64,000 nucleotides of DNA from Ferrimicrobium sp. (GTDB lineage Bacteria; Actinomycetota; Acidimicrobiia; Acidimicrobiales; Acidimicrobiaceae), in the NCBI RefSeq assembly GCF_027364955.1, contig NZ_DAHXOI010000007.1:1-64000 (forward strand), in the 5' to 3' direction. Positions 908 through 33,533 of the stretch are shown piece by piece. Within the stretch, counting starts at the first letter, position 1; every line of letters starts with the position of its first letter. The notes under the pieces were generated by a model. It did no database searches. It saw nothing but the letters and a program-made list of their open reading frames with translations, and was not told the DNA's origin. The position numbers were made by a program, and so were the translations under genes.

Positions 908-1028
908 CGAGCGGTGGCAATAGCGGTGGGGAGACACCCGTTCCCATTCCGAACACGACCAGTTAAGCCCGCCCGCGCCGATGGTACTTGGGGGGAGGCC
1001 CCCTGGGAGAGTAGGGCACTGCCGCTCG
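908..1028 (+). rRNA. rrf: 5S ribosomal RNA
   Basis: About 121 nt with the helix I pairing CGAGCGG (908-914) to CCGCTCG (1022-1028). The conserved loop GGGGAGACACCCGTTCCCATTCCGAAC and the loop E/helix IV region with GATGGTACTTGGGG are present. It lies directly downstream of the 23S gene, which gives the normal 23S-5S order. Confidence 0.95.
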
Positions 1029-13424: not shown

Positions 13425-15038
13425 TTAAGCCAACGTCACAAGTTCCAAAAGCTCTTCGTTCCAGTAATCCTCAACACCGTCTGGTAACATCAGGACGCGC
13501 TCGGGCTGGAGTGCCTCAACGGCGCCTGGGTCGTGGGTCACCAGTATGATAGCGCCCGTGTAGCTACGGAGTGCTGCAAGAACGCGATCGCGGCTGGCCG
13601 GGTCAAGGTTGTTGGTCGGTTCATCGAGCAGGAGTAGGTTGGCACGTTGCGAAACGAGTGTGGCAAGGGCAAGGCGAGTCTTCTCGCCACCCGATAAGGT
13701 CCCGCTCGGTTGGTTGAACATCTCTGATGTAAACATGAATGAGCCGAGGATCTGCCGTAAGTCAGTGTCGGTCACATCAGCTGGTGCGCTCTTGCGGAGG
13801 TTTTCAAGTGGGGTAAGGTTGGGGTTGAGCATCTCATGCTCTTGGGCATAGTAGCCGATGACGAGACCTTTTCCGGGATGGATGTCACCAGCATCGGGAG
13901 TCTCCACGTTTGCCAGCAACCTGAGGAGTGTTGTCTTGCCTGCTCCATTAAGACCGAGAATAACGACCCGGGACTGCCGATCGATGGCAAGGTCGATGCC
14001 GCTAATGACCTCCAATGAGCCATAGGACTTGGCAAGTCCATTGGCTTGAATTGGAGTCTTGGTGCAGGGCAGGGGTTGGGGGAAGCGGATATTGGCGACC
14101 TTGTCGGATACGCGAACATCGTCGACGTTATCGAGTATGCGTGTTGCCCGTCGGTCAAGAACTTTGGCTTTGCGCGCACGTTTTGCTGTGGAGCCACGCA
14201 TCTTATCGGCCTGACGTTTGAGTTGGGTCGCCTTGGTCGTCTCCACCTCGTAGAGGTGCCGTCGGCGGGCCTCGTCCTCGGCGCGGGCGACGAGATAGGC
14301 ACGATAGTGGAGGGTATATAGATCAAGCGTCGAGCGCTGTGGATCAAGGAAGGCAACTCGATTGACGACGGATTCGAGTAACCTCGCGTCGTGGGAGATG
14401 ACGATCAGCCCGCCACTGAAGTTCTTCAAAAAGTCCGTCAACCAGTTGATGGAGTCAGCATCCAGGTGATTGGTAGGCTCGTCCAGCAACAAGAGGTCTG
14501 CTTCGGAGAAGAGGATACGTGCCAATTCTATCCGTCGTCGTTGTCCACCGCTGAGTACCCCAATCGGCTGGGATAGAACGTGGGCTTCGATGCCGAGGGA
14601 GTTCGCGAGCACGGTGGCATCGGATTCAGCACGGTAGCCGTCTCGACTGGCAAAGAGCGTTTCCACATAACCATACTCCTTGGTAGCACTTTCTTGGACG
14701 GAGGCATCTGTCTCCGTCATAAGCTGTTGGAGCTCGGTAAGTCTGGCAAAAAGATCATCAAGTTGACGTCCCGACAGAATCCGCGAGAGTGCGGTGAGCT
14801 GTGGATCGGCGGCGAGGGGGTCTTGTGGTAAATACCCGACGCTACCCGCTCGCTCAAGGATCCCTTTGGCTTCGAGTTCGCCGGCGAGAATCTTCATCAA
14901 GGTGGTCTTGCCAGCACCGTTGCGACCGACGAGACCGACTCGATCTCCCTTGTCAACCAGCAAGTTGAGATCATCAAAGAGGACTCGGGCACCGTATTCG
15001 AACTGTAGTGACTTGGCATGAACAAGCATGGGGCTCAT
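13425..15038 (-). CDS. ABC-F family ATPase (translation factor/ribosome protection type)
   Basis: 537 aa with two ABC domains and no membrane segments, the ABC-F layout. Domain 1: GRNGAGKTT, LSGGQRRRIELAR and LLLLDEPTNHLD. Domain 2: GLNGAGKTT, LSGGEKTRLALA and LLLLDEPTNNLD. Between them is the charged helical linker (EDEARRRHLYEVETTKATQLKRQADKM...), which in this family reaches into the ribosome E site. Relatives include EttA, Uup and antibiotic-protection factors; the sequence does not tell which. ATG 15038 or ATG 15029 could be the start. It acts in the cytoplasm. Confidence 0.92.
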   Translation of the reverse strand: MSPMLVHAKSLQFEYGARVLFDDLNLLVDKGDRVGLVGRNGAGKTTLMKILAGELEAKGILERAGSVGYLPQDPLAADPQLTALSRILSGRQLDDLFARLTELQQLMTETDASVQESATKEYGYVETLFASRDGYRAESDATVLANSLGIEAHVLSQPIGVLSGGQRRRIELARILFSEADLLLLDEPTNHLDADSINWLTDFLKNFSGGLIVISHDARLLESVVNRVAFLDPQRSTLDLYTLHYRAYLVARAEDEARRRHLYEVETTKATQLKRQADKMRGSTAKRARKAKVLDRRATRILDNVDDVRVSDKVANIRFPQPLPCTKTPIQANGLAKSYGSLEVISGIDLAIDRQSRVVILGLNGAGKTTLLRLLANVETPDAGDIHPGKGLVIGYYAQEHEMLNPNLTPLENLRKSAPADVTDTDLRQILGSFMFTSEMFNQPSGTLSGGEKTRLALATLVSQRANLLLLDEPTNNLDPASRDRVLAALRSYTGAIILVTHDPGAVEALQPERVLMLPDGVEDYWNEELLELVTLA

Positions 15039-15260
15039 TTCCGAGAGATGGTGACCTCGCTAGAGTCTACTAGGGATGCCTGATAGAGGCTTCTTCCTTC
15101 TGACGTCATGGAATAGTGGAAGGGGAGAAGTGTGGTGCTGACGGTGCCTGTTCAGGCTCGGGGAAGATAGAAACATCAGCAACCTGGGTCGGTACCGGTT
15201 AGGATGATTTGGCGCAAAATTTTCCTCTTTATTCTTCCCACATCATCGGAGTACAATAAT

Positions 15261-16361
15261 ATGTCAGATAGATCAGACGGCCCTCAGCAGTTTGGCGAGT
15301 CGGGTTCGTCGGATCGACCCGATCGCCCCCGCAGCCAAGACGGTGATCGTCCACGATACTCCCGACCACGAGATACCGATCGTGACCGCGGAGGTTTCCG
15401 TTCTGGTCCACGACCTGATCGCCAGGATCGACCCGATCGTGACCGCGGAGGTTTCCGTTCTGGTCCACGACCTGATCGCCAGGATCGACCCGATCGCGAC
15501 CGCAGCCAAGACGGTGATCGTCCACGATACTCCCGACCACGAGATACCGATCGTGACCGCGGAGTCGACGAACGAGTAGAGCCTGGTGTTGATTGGGTGG
15601 AAGCCGAGGCGGCGGCGTCTGCATCTGCGCCAAGTGAGCCACCAAACCTTCCATCGCTTCGTTTTCATGCATCGCGCTGGTTGCAGAAGGAGTCAGGCGA
15701 TGCACCCTCGAGGGCTCGAATCCGAGATGCGAGTCAAGAGAGTTCCAAGGTGCGTTCCCAGCGTCCATCAATGCGAGGCAAGAGTCGCTCAGCTATGCAA
15801 CAGTTGCTTGCGCGAGCCACAGAAGCCTATGAGCGTGACCGCTTCGAGGAGACGCTGCGCATTACGCGCCGAATCGATTCGATGGACCCGGATGAACCGG
15901 AAGTGTTGGAGCTCATGGGTCTGAGCCTCTATCGCCTCGCCCGCTATGATGCAGCGCTTCGTGTGTTGCGTAAGGTTCATAAGGCGACAGACAATTTCGA
16001 TCAACTGCCTGTGCTGATGGACTGCGCACGGGCCCTTGGTCGGACGGGCGAGTTGGAGCGATGGTGGTTGCGTCTGCGTGAAGCGTCTCCAGCCAAGGAG
16101 GTTGTTGTTGAGGGACGAATTGTCTATGCCGGTGCCTTGGCGGACCAGGGCAAGCTTGCTGAGGCTATCGCCTTGATGGAACAAGGTCTAGCTAAAGAGC
16201 GCCGCGGGACCGCATTGACAAGTATTCGGCAACGATATCTCCTGGCCCAACTCTTTGAGCGTGCTGGCGATGCCTCTGGAGCTCGGGAGATTTACCTACA
16301 GTTGTTTAAGGAAGACAAGAACCTCTACGACGTTGCCGAACGTCTTGCCGTCTTGAGTTAG
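15261..16361 (+). CDS. TPR protein with an Arg/Asp/Pro-rich repeat N-terminus
   Basis: 366 aa. The first ~110 residues are low-complexity and highly charged, made of two kinds of repeat: RPRYSRPRDTDRDRG twice, flanking GFRSGPRPDRQDRPDRDRG twice. The rest, from about residue 175, is helical TPR sequence (LARATEAYERDRFEETLRI, LMGLSLYRLARYDAALRVL, and so on). ATG 15261 follows GGAG by 9 bases. A TPR protein close to a HAD-IIA phosphatase recalls the Rv1691-Rv1692 arrangement in mycobacteria. The charged disordered part may bind nucleic acid or drive condensation; that is inference. The function is unknown. Confidence 0.8.
   Translation: MSDRSDGPQQFGESGSSDRPDRPRSQDGDRPRYSRPRDTDRDRGGFRSGPRPDRQDRPDRDRGGFRSGPRPDRQDRPDRDRSQDGDRPRYSRPRDTDRDRGVDERVEPGVDWVEAEAAASASAPSEPPNLPSLRFHASRWLQKESGDAPSRARIRDASQESSKVRSQRPSMRGKSRSAMQQLLARATEAYERDRFEETLRITRRIDSMDPDEPEVLELMGLSLYRLARYDAALRVLRKVHKATDNFDQLPVLMDCARALGRTGELERWWLRLREASPAKEVVVEGRIVYAGALADQGKLAEAIALMEQGLAKERRGTALTSIRQRYLLAQLFERAGDASGAREIYLQLFKEDKNLYDVAERLAVLS
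15331..15564 (+). repeat. In-frame repeats in the TPR gene: 63-bp direct repeat flanking a 57-bp tandem repeat
   Basis: A 63-base segment at 15331-15393 recurs identically at 15502-15564. Between them a 57-base unit beginning CGTGACCGCGG is present in tandem at 15381-15437 and 15438-15494. All units are multiples of three, so the frame is kept. This is a good substrate for slippage or recombination, so repeat number probably varies between strains. Confidence 0.93.
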
Positions 16362-16523: not shown

Positions 16524-17411
16524 TTATTGCCAAGCCCCAGCCAGGATCGCTGTCGAAGGCTCTAGTGCAACATTGGCAGGAAAGCAGAGCGCCGGGTCCC
16601 TGGAGGCAGCGATTTCGCGCAGAGCGGCGAAGTTGGGAAACCATGTGATCTTTCCCTCCGTTTGAGTCCACGACATCGAGGGGTGCGCTAAAACCGGCTT
16701 GTCCATGTCCCGGGGAGACCGGTTTGTCATGCCAAATGTGATCTCTTGTTCTTGGGTGTGGTAGCAGGCAACCCTGTCAGTGATCGCTTGTGCATCCTGA
16801 CTTGTCGATAGCGAAAGAAGCCAGGTTTTGACTCTTGCGGTCGCATCTTGACTTGGTTCAACTGTCACTGCTGGGCGCAGGAATGTGGCGGCGACCTCAA
16901 GCGATGTGATGAAAACGGGGGCGATATCGACCGGTGTCCCCCCGGGTCGCTCGAGTATTGTGAGTGCTGGTTGGTCAATGATGATATCAGCGATCACTCT
17001 GTCAAGGGCCGGCCCGTCGTAGTGTTCCAGACGGTGAACGATGCCGTTGTTGTCGGCTACATTGCCAAGGTAGCTACCTTGGCTGACCAGGATCGCGTCG
17101 AGGTCTTGCGTATCAATCGCGATCCATAATGGTGGGTTTGTTCCGAGTCGCGGCAAGCCGACGACGAGACCTCGAATACGCAGCCGTTCCTCCATCCTTG
17201 TGGTGGCAATGGTGTAGCGATAGTACGAGGGCGCATCTTCGTGAATCAGGTTTGGCGATGGCCAAGCACTTGGCATCTCATCGTCGAACCCTTCCGCACC
17301 TGCGGCTTCGGCGTCTAGGTGGATGAGCGAGATTGGCCCCACCCTAGATATGTTCGTTGGGCGTAGCATGGTGGCCGGGTAGCCTGGAGCGGTGGTGTTG
17401 AGATTTCTCAT
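16524..17411 (-). CDS. Protein of unknown function
   Basis: A ~295-aa frame with balanced composition and no signal peptide or membrane segment. It includes IRGLVVGLPRLGTNPPLWIA, VSQGSYLGNVADNNGIVHRL, SMSWTQTEGKITWFPNFAAL and a C-terminal PSTAILAGAW. I do not recognise the family. It is transcribed divergently from the HAD phosphatase gene. Without an upstream ribosome-binding site the start is uncertain: ATG 17411 leaves a 37-base gap to that gene, while an extension to 17525 would overlap it. Codon use looks like that of neighbouring genes, so I regard it as real. It ends ~160 bases from the TPR gene, in convergent orientation. Confidence 0.6.
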   Translation of the reverse strand: MRNLNTTAPGYPATMLRPTNISRVGPISLIHLDAEAAGAEGFDDEMPSAWPSPNLIHEDAPSYYRYTIATTRMEERLRIRGLVVGLPRLGTNPPLWIAIDTQDLDAILVSQGSYLGNVADNNGIVHRLEHYDGPALDRVIADIIIDQPALTILERPGGTPVDIAPVFITSLEVAATFLRPAVTVEPSQDATARVKTWLLSLSTSQDAQAITDRVACYHTQEQEITFGMTNRSPRDMDKPVLAHPSMSWTQTEGKITWFPNFAALREIAASRDPALCFPANVALEPSTAILAGAWQ

Positions 17412-17448
17412 TTGAGACGTAAGGTTAGTGCGAAGGACGGAGTGAAGT

Positions 17449-18207
17449 ATGCAGTGGTTGCTCGATCTAGACGGGGTGGTGTGGACACTCGATACCCCGA
17501 TTGGAGGTTCAGTTGAGGCGATCACGCGGCTGCAAGAACTTGGTCACCAAGTTCGCTTTGTGACGAATAATTCCTCCCTCTCACGAACCCAGTACATCGA
17601 CAAATTAGCGCGGTTCGGTGTGGTGGCCAACCATGAGCAAATTCTCACTTCGGCGATGGCGGCTGCGACGTTGGTGAAGGAAGGGGAGCGCGTGCTCGCG
17701 ATCGGCGAGCGAGGATTGATTGAGGAGCTTGAGAACGTTGGAGCCGATCTTGTTGTGCCAAAGCGACTGGAGGATGCCGAAGGGCTTGACACAGTAGTCT
17801 TGGGTTGGTACCGTCAATTTGGTTATGCCGATATGTCAAATGCTTGTGTGGCGATCCGCTCAGGTGCCCGATTCCTTGCGACGAATGCCGATCCGTCGTA
17901 CCCGCTTGAGCGGCTTGTTGTTCCCGGAACGGGAGCGCTGGTCGCTGCGGTAGTAACCGCCACGGGTGCCCAACCAATTTTCGCTGGTAAACCTGAGGAT
18001 CCTATGGTGCAGTTGGTCCGACCGTTATTGACGGATGAGACCATTATGGTTGGGGATCGCTTAAGTACTGATGGTCGTTTCGCAGCGCGCCTCGGTGTTG
18101 AGTTTGGGCTGGTGCATTCTGGGGTGCGCGAAGAGCATGATCCCGATATCCCGGTGAGTCTGCAGGCTGGCAGCTTGGCGGCAATAGTAGCGATGAAGGT
18201 GGGTTGA
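17449..18207 (+). CDS. HAD-superfamily IIA phosphatase (NagD/phosphoglycolate-phosphatase-like)
   Basis: 252 aa with all HAD-IIA marks: motif I DLDGVVW (nucleophile Asp6, acid/base Asp8), motif II VTNNSS, the IIA cap region in the middle, motif III Lys in FAGKPEDPM and motif IV GDRLSTD. Such enzymes hydrolyse small sugar or polyol phosphates; the mycobacterial relative Rv1692 is a glycerol-3-phosphate phosphatase. The exact substrate is not evident. ATG 17449 follows GGAGTGAAG. The stop codon is separated by one base from the ATG of the next gene, so the two are translationally linked. Confidence 0.9.
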   Translation: MQWLLDLDGVVWTLDTPIGGSVEAITRLQELGHQVRFVTNNSSLSRTQYIDKLARFGVVANHEQILTSAMAAATLVKEGERVLAIGERGLIEELENVGADLVVPKRLEDAEGLDTVVLGWYRQFGYADMSNACVAIRSGARFLATNADPSYPLERLVVPGTGALVAAVVTATGAQPIFAGKPEDPMVQLVRPLLTDETIMVGDRLSTDGRFAARLGVEFGLVHSGVREEHDPDIPVSLQAGSLAAIVAMKVG

Positions 18208-33481: not shown

Positions 33482-33533
33482 CTGGACCATCTAGCTGGAC
33501 CGTCTAGCTGGACCATCTAGCTGGACCGTCTAG
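33482..33533 (+). repeat. Four tandem copies of a 13-bp repeat, CTGGACCRTCTAG
   Basis: The copies begin at 33482, 33495, 33508 and 33521. R alternates A, G, A, G, so the array is also two copies of a 26-bp unit. Each copy has TCTAG at its junction. It lies 93 bases upstream of the VOC gene. It may be a cluster of regulator sites or simple slippage; the sequence does not decide. Confidence 0.9.

Follow-up and report, generated by a model that had tools for sequence, protein, structure and literature searches.

What could an array of near-identical DNA repeats be doing inside an open reading frame, and how do its copies stay both alike and in frame? This question is raised by a gene in the window (the whole stretch of 64,000 nucleotides of Ferrimicrobium DNA analysed here), and the answer developed below is that the array may be regarded as coding sequence: its repeats encode part of the disordered arm at the N-terminus of a TPR protein that is conserved among actinobacteria. 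The best-supported part of this answer is that a predicted disordered, mixed-charge, Arg-rich arm has its length set by in-frame repeats and its composition kept by selection.

The array has the layout A-B-B-A inside a gene of 366 codons (Table 1), with an A unit of 83 bp and a B unit of 57 bp. The two copies of A are spaced by 171 nt and differ at two adjacent mismatches, after which 65 nt are identical, which bears out the identical 63-bp copies described in an earlier note on this DNA. The 57-bp tandem pair which that note had placed between the longer copies is indeed there, as two identical B copies, and its statement that all the copies keep the frame is also correct, the spacings of 57 and 171 being divisible by 3 and the frame being open. 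A chance origin of the repeats can be excluded, since only one of the 159 tiles of 400 nt in the window, the tile at 15201, contains a direct repeat scoring at least 40. The repeat stretch occurs once in the genome at the DNA level, and the search of the genome gave no further convincing arm of the same kind (the next best match has an E value of 0.02). The third match of the arm search, in L202, lies in a neighbourhood with what we take, judging by eye, to be a dGTPase-like gene.

The start of the TPR gene is most likely the ATG at 15261 rather than the in-frame ATG at 15204. The former is preferred because a GGAG lies 9 nt upstream and the leader is conserved in relatives; the latter is disfavoured because it overlaps a conserved, promoter-like TAGGAT. 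The gene was matched in 48 of the 60 genomes searched, a count that includes the genome of the window.

Table 1. Coordinates of the features discussed, as positions in the window.
Feature	Position	Strand	Basis
TPR protein gene with N-terminal repeat arm, 366 aa	15261..16361	+	ORF and translation; Pfam TPR_14
TAGGAT, promoter -10-like	15200..15205	+	Conserved upstream in alignment of six same-genus genomes; putative promoter role
GGAG, Shine-Dalgarno-like	15248..15251	+	Read in sequence; in all six alignment rows
Arg/Asp arm bearing repeats, residues 17-101	15309..15563	+	Sequence and translation
Repeat A copy 1, 83 nt	15311..15393	+	Direct-repeat comparison
Repeat B copy 1, 57 nt	15376..15432	+	Direct-repeat comparison
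Repeat B copy 2, 57 nt, identical to copy 1	15433..15489	+	Direct-repeat comparison
Repeat A copy 2, 81/83 identical to copy 1	15482..15564	+	Direct-repeat comparison
Linker, residues 102-170, predicted disorder to about 161	15564..15770	+	Structure model
TPR solenoid, residues 171-366, 11 helices, pLDDT mostly at least 90	15771..16358	+	Model and Foldseek
HAD-IIA family phosphatase, recurrent downstream neighbour	17449..18207	+	TIGR01460, 131.6 bits (cut-off 100.15)
23S rRNA 3' part, truncated at contig edge	1..799	+	Rfam RF02541
5S rRNA	910..1027	+	Rfam RF00001; TPR gene directly after 5S in many relatives

Divergent from the TPR gene is a gene for an ABC-F ATPase (13425-15038, minus strand), whose best NCBIfam match, a ribosomal protection-like ABC-F family, scores 365 bits and thus falls below its cut-off of 380. 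Between the TPR gene and the HAD gene, the other strand has an open frame of 333 codons (16527-17525, minus strand), for which Pfam and NCBIfam give no match at E 0.001. Elsewhere in the window, at 33482-33533, a 13-bp unit is present in four head-to-tail copies.

The 85 residues of the repeat-bearing arm comprise 27 Arg, 20 Asp, 12 Pro, and 9 Gly, with neither Lys nor Glu and a net charge of +7. In an AlphaFold2 model built with 38 aligned sequences, pLDDT is below 50 over most of residues 10-161, a region where few alignment rows cover the arm and where thin depth alone lowers the score. The predicted disorder thus extends past the repeats to about residue 161. The earlier note had spoken of a charged, probably disordered arm of about 100 residues, and the predicted disorder and the richness in Arg and Asp agree with this; the arm, however, is N-terminal rather than a tail. 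In the same model, pLDDT is at least 90 at 180 residues, nearly all of which belong to the C-terminal solenoid. That this domain is a TPR domain is supported by profile matches above the curated cut-offs (TPR_14, 36 bits, cut-off 23.5; TPR_19, 30.5 bits, cut-off 25), as well as by the solenoid of helical hairpins found in the model and by Foldseek. Searches of the PDB by sequence and by fold returned mostly designed repeat proteins and general TPR proteins. Generic solenoids such as Thermus TTC0263 (2pl2), MamA, and the consensus CTPR proteins resemble the fold of residues 171-366, but these are general TPR proteins from which no function can be transferred to the protein of the window.

The history of the array can be followed within the genus, where each species is represented by one genome and where the TPR gene is present in five of the six other genomes. 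Taking G000 as the genome of the window and G001-G005 as these relatives, the arrays are AB in G004, ABA in G001, A'B'A' in G003, A''B''A'' in G002, and (BA)x3 in G005. Within a genome, the copies are identical over 83/83 positions in G001, 61/61 in G003, 64/64 in G002, and 236/236 in G005, as against 81/83 in the window, and no repeat above the threshold was found in G004. The genomes themselves are far apart: in 14 of the 15 genome pairs, 59-76% of the four-fold sites in the TPR domain are different, the exception being G000 and G004, the closest pair, with 11%. Since the ABA layout is common to three relatives, copies of that age should have diverged, and the fact that they are identical despite the old layout implies that each lineage has either homogenised its copies or lost them and formed them anew. 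In all five of the repeat-bearing genomes of the genus, the repeat shifts are multiples of 3. Judged from these sequences, the repeats undergo concerted evolution, and they do so in frame.

Between G000 and G004, the length difference is exactly 114 nt. Of the possible removals of one 114-nt stretch from G000, the best puts the break within about 18 identical nt, after which 24 differences over 360 nt, linker included, still separate the two. The length variants that the earlier note had envisaged are thus found in part, in that the number of units differs, in frame, between related species, these data being between-species ones. Such a difference in unit count among relatives makes this a candidate coding variable-number repeat. 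Coding minisatellites are variable-number repeats inside genes, and the array in the TPR arm resembles them in its in-frame units, its changes in copy number, and its homogenised copies. Unlike purely tandem coding minisatellites, it is interspersed (ABBA).

How general is this behaviour? A profile of the TPR domain matches 210 of 396 Actinomycetota genomes, although weak matches near the profile threshold may be other TPR proteins. Two sets of loci were compared: 53 loci hand-chosen to span the families of the phylum (52 from the 210 matched genomes plus G048) and 80 loci mostly from metagenome assemblies, many of which are titled Acidimicrobiales or Acidimicrobiaceae; at least one genome (L043, L195) is common to both. 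From the 133 loci, 14 were dropped before counting because their arms contained N or were shorter than 60 residues, which leaves 119 arms, including 26 cut by the end of a contig or locus and with starts that are estimates. DNA repeats are present in 35 of the 119 arms versus 4 of the 118 control stretches. The shift is divisible by 3 in 145 of 149 repeat pairs and, for the best pair, in 35 of the 35 arms. Very short arms also exist, with 28 residues before the domain in L163 and 50 in L159, so that the arm is dispensable in some lineages, a point against the reading preferred below. Among 16 arms from single- or large-contig genomes, 6 have repeats and 10 have none, the identities in these genomes reaching 365/371 in G012, 352/352 in G248, and 343/344 in G376.

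The arms carry at least one RGG motif in 86 of 119 cases (321 motifs observed versus 211 expected). In the 84 repeat-free arms, RGG is hardly enriched (120 versus 98), and the label of an RGG-box protein was dropped because the enrichment hinges on the arms with DNA repeats. RGG/RG-rich, disordered RNA-binding arms are known from the tails of DEAD-box helicases and from FUS-like proteins. The arm of the window is like them in being Arg-rich, disordered, and multivalent, with RGG-like and aromatic-Arg motifs, and unlike them in having Asp nearly matching Arg (20 versus 27) and two RGG motifs only; its RNA binding is putative.

A comparison of G000 with G001 indicates that selection keeps the residues of the first repeats, since residues 17-54 have a dN of 0 with a dS of 0.36; over codons 1-54, the values are 0.017 and 0.29, and over the linker, 0.34 and 2.18. 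For the arm and linker taken jointly, five more distant pairs give dN/dS values of 0.13-0.25 (in the TPR domain, dS is saturated and has no value in six of seven pairs). Composition tells a similar story: the arms read in frame have medians of 13% Asp/Glu and 9.7% hydrophobic residues, whereas reading this DNA in its five alternative frames gives at most 5.7% and at least 14.7%, respectively; in these frames, too, the GC-rich DNA is Arg-rich. The dN/dS values and the in-frame composition together imply that the character of the arm is constrained, though its exact sequence and length change. Synonymous change is itself low in the arm: four-fold sites have changed in 9 of 33 cases there (window 15261-15422) versus 57 of 93 in the rest of the gene, the TPR domain (Fisher p 0.001), and the dS values of arm, TPR domain, and linker between G000 and G004 are 0, 0.13, and 0.37. 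This might be due to constraint on the 5' end of the mRNA, to biased gene conversion, or to interspecies exchange.

The neighbourhood of the gene gives a hint as to function. Among loci that offer at least 2.5 kb of upstream sequence, 28 of 39 in the phylum set and 11 of 22 in the Acidimicrobiia-rich set carry a 5S rRNA gene in the same orientation no more than 2.5 kb before the TPR domain; it is absent from the other 11 in each case. When shorter loci that show 5S are added, the counts become 36 of 53 and 45 of 80, all 81 on the same strand, but these lean upwards, and 28/39 and 11/22 are the fair figures. By our estimate, such a linkage would rarely arise by chance at either tally. The 36 phylum loci with 5S belong, by our own tally, to 23 taxonomic families. 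A Shine-Dalgarno-like start is present in 62 of the 81 linked loci, and the gap from 5S to start has a median of 143 nt (quartiles 87 and 512), the longer gaps being possibly due to wrong starts. The window itself is not directly linked in this way: its 5S gene is on the same strand 14.2 kb upstream, with transporter and other genes in between. In G002, G003, and G004, the distance to an upstream 5S gene of the same strand is 14-16 kb; in G001 and G005, no 5S was found before the contig ends, 14.6 and 11 kb upstream. A simple co-transcription of the TPR gene with the rRNA operon is doubtful, since a hairpin with a U-rich tail, resembling a terminator, follows 5S in 25 of 80 loci versus 0 of 80 controls (the hairpin threshold alone is reached in 80/80 of both sets, so that only the U-rich tail discriminates).

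By hand count, 22 of 30 hand-chosen genomes have the rRNA methylase gene tlyA on the same strand no more than 15 kb downstream, and 8 of 22 likewise hand-chosen genomes have tyrS on the same strand no more than 10 kb upstream (9 with a second TPR match in G254 included); in the genome of the window, both are on other contigs. G254 has two equal-scoring matches to the TPR domain (C1:2618970-2619446 and 960402-960878), one of which is 6 kb downstream of tyrS. No link of rRNA operons to this TPR gene was seen among the literature matches listed.

The order tyrS, TPR, HAD, tlyA was found in genomes of family f62 (G129, G150, and G200), and of this order, the window keeps HAD only, with one opposite-strand frame in between. 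With rRNA genes or none after tyrS, the same f62 order fits the published place of mycobacterial rrnB operons, which the available part of the source puts downstream of tyrS (PMC10218544), and it resembles that of Rv1691, of which MSMEG_3754 is given as the orthologue (PMC7092591). A link between the family of the window and Rv1691/MSMEG_3754 is presumed here on the basis of profile matches and matching gene order rather than of a comparison with the named proteins. In their arms they may differ, since the two f62 arms examined (L184 and L185) are shorter than that of the window and have no DNA repeats. As far as the passages available go, MSMEG_3754 was chosen for validation from among the high-confidence proteins that came with the beta subunit of RNA polymerase upon crosslinking, and no DNA was recovered in the pull-down of FLAG-MSMEG_3754 (PMC7092591); the protein also appears in a ClpC1 interactome (PMC10433963, likewise in part). 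The absence of DNA with this presumed orthologue weakens the idea of the earlier note that the arm may bind DNA. A role related to RNA or the ribosome fits better, given the rRNA neighbours, tlyA, the co-recovery with RNA polymerase, and the lack of recovered DNA, although the neighbourhood could also reflect inherited gene order alone.

Could the copy number of the repeats be an artefact of assembly? Arms may trouble assemblers, as seen from open frames that reach the contig end in 21 of 80 loci with no rRNA upstream and from runs of N in 6 of 80 ORFs, and homogenisation by the assembler could still inflate the identity within draft genomes. The repeats of the window, however, are only 57-83 nt long and are enclosed in a contig of 134 kb, related layouts exist in five other assemblies, and comparable arrays are carried by single-contig genomes (G012, G248), even if 10 of the 16 arms from single- or large-contig genomes have none. 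An artefact is thus very improbable, and so is the collapse of the copies into an assembly error, which the earlier note had named as what could undo its case. The converse argument, that contig breaks are a sign of repeat instability, was dropped in its strong version: a contig end lies within 5 kb upstream in 67 of 80 loci versus 20 of 80 within 5 kb downstream, but 38 of these 67 have rRNA upstream, and in only 21 of the 80 does the open frame reach a contig end with no rRNA there. If the repeats are real, the arm might nevertheless be a nearly neutral spacer of low complexity, produced by slippage in GC-rich DNA, with the frame kept only for the sake of the downstream TPR domain and with no specific ligand. 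The species-specific units, which are lost and gained between relatives, and the extreme range of arm lengths (60 to 671 residues in the 119 arms counted, with shorter ones below that cut-off) would suit such a spacer, which we nonetheless find unlikely in view of the absence of amino acid change in residues 17-54, the low dN over codons 1-54, and a composition that differs from that of the other five frames.

The strongest rival assumes that the arm has a purpose, albeit another one: the TPR protein would serve the neighbouring HAD-IIA phosphatase as a partner or scaffold, the arm would tether or cluster this metabolic pair, and the rRNA linkage would be inherited gene order. In 25 of the 53 phylum loci, the HAD gene follows downstream in the same orientation, and it begins 40-44 nt past the TPR domain in five loci (L144, L145, L146, L184, and L185). 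Moreover, the two genes are fused into a single open frame, on the minus strand, in two loci of family f62 (L144, 2930-4855; L145, 2783-4933), and these fusions support the partnership. In the passages available, Rv1691, Rv1692, and tlyA are listed in one operon (PMC3072309), and Rv1692 of M. tuberculosis is a glycerol-3-phosphate phosphatase (PMC12722247). However, HAD was not found in 28 of the 53 loci (some of which are short, and one query was used), the linkage to 5S (28/39) is at least as frequent, and a small phosphatase has no obvious need of a highly charged, Arg-rich arm. A partnership of this kind consequently seems rather improbable, its place as the foremost alternative notwithstanding.

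The reading preferred here, to which we give about an even chance, is that the protein is an RNA- or ribosome-related TPR adaptor with a tunable arm built by the in-frame gain and loss of repeats, its function being deduced from the evidence above. Units would be added or removed in frame, and the copies kept alike, through unequal recombination or slippage of replication between the short repeats, a mechanism which we infer from a pattern seen between species. According to the comparisons, selection maintains the frame and a character that is rich in Arg, Asp, Gly, and Pro and poor in hydrophobic residues, whereas length and exact sequence drift. The TPR domain, as the conserved part, probably docks a protein partner, to judge from its fold. 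The arm would then most likely offer RNA or ribonucleoprotein a contact surface that is multivalent and tunable, and the protein may act in the handling of rRNA or ribosomes, or near transcribing RNA polymerase, as its neighbourhood and one proteomics result suggest. A more tentative version, which is possible although we would not expect it, is that this is an unrecognised rRNA- or ribosome-handling factor of the Actinomycetota, its gene kept by the rRNA operon and tlyA in much of the phylum, in which recombination could quickly retune the RNA valence of the arm, and perhaps how readily it forms condensates, with the TPR domain left unchanged. If these ideas are true, a phylum of antibiotic producers and mycobacteria would offer a testable candidate for ribosome or RNA handling, and the length of a bacterial disordered arm would be evolving by in-frame recombination, with selection acting on composition more than on sequence.

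Some of the loci show peculiarities in their rRNA genes. In L055, a match to a group I intron (RF00028, positions 1-333) lies beside the 3' part of a 23S rRNA gene upstream of the TPR gene, and in L067 (302-4077) and L051 (92-3899), the 23S rRNA matches are about 3.8 kb long, compared with 2.9 kb for the model, which suggests large insertions or introns in the 23S rRNA genes of some Acidimicrobiia.
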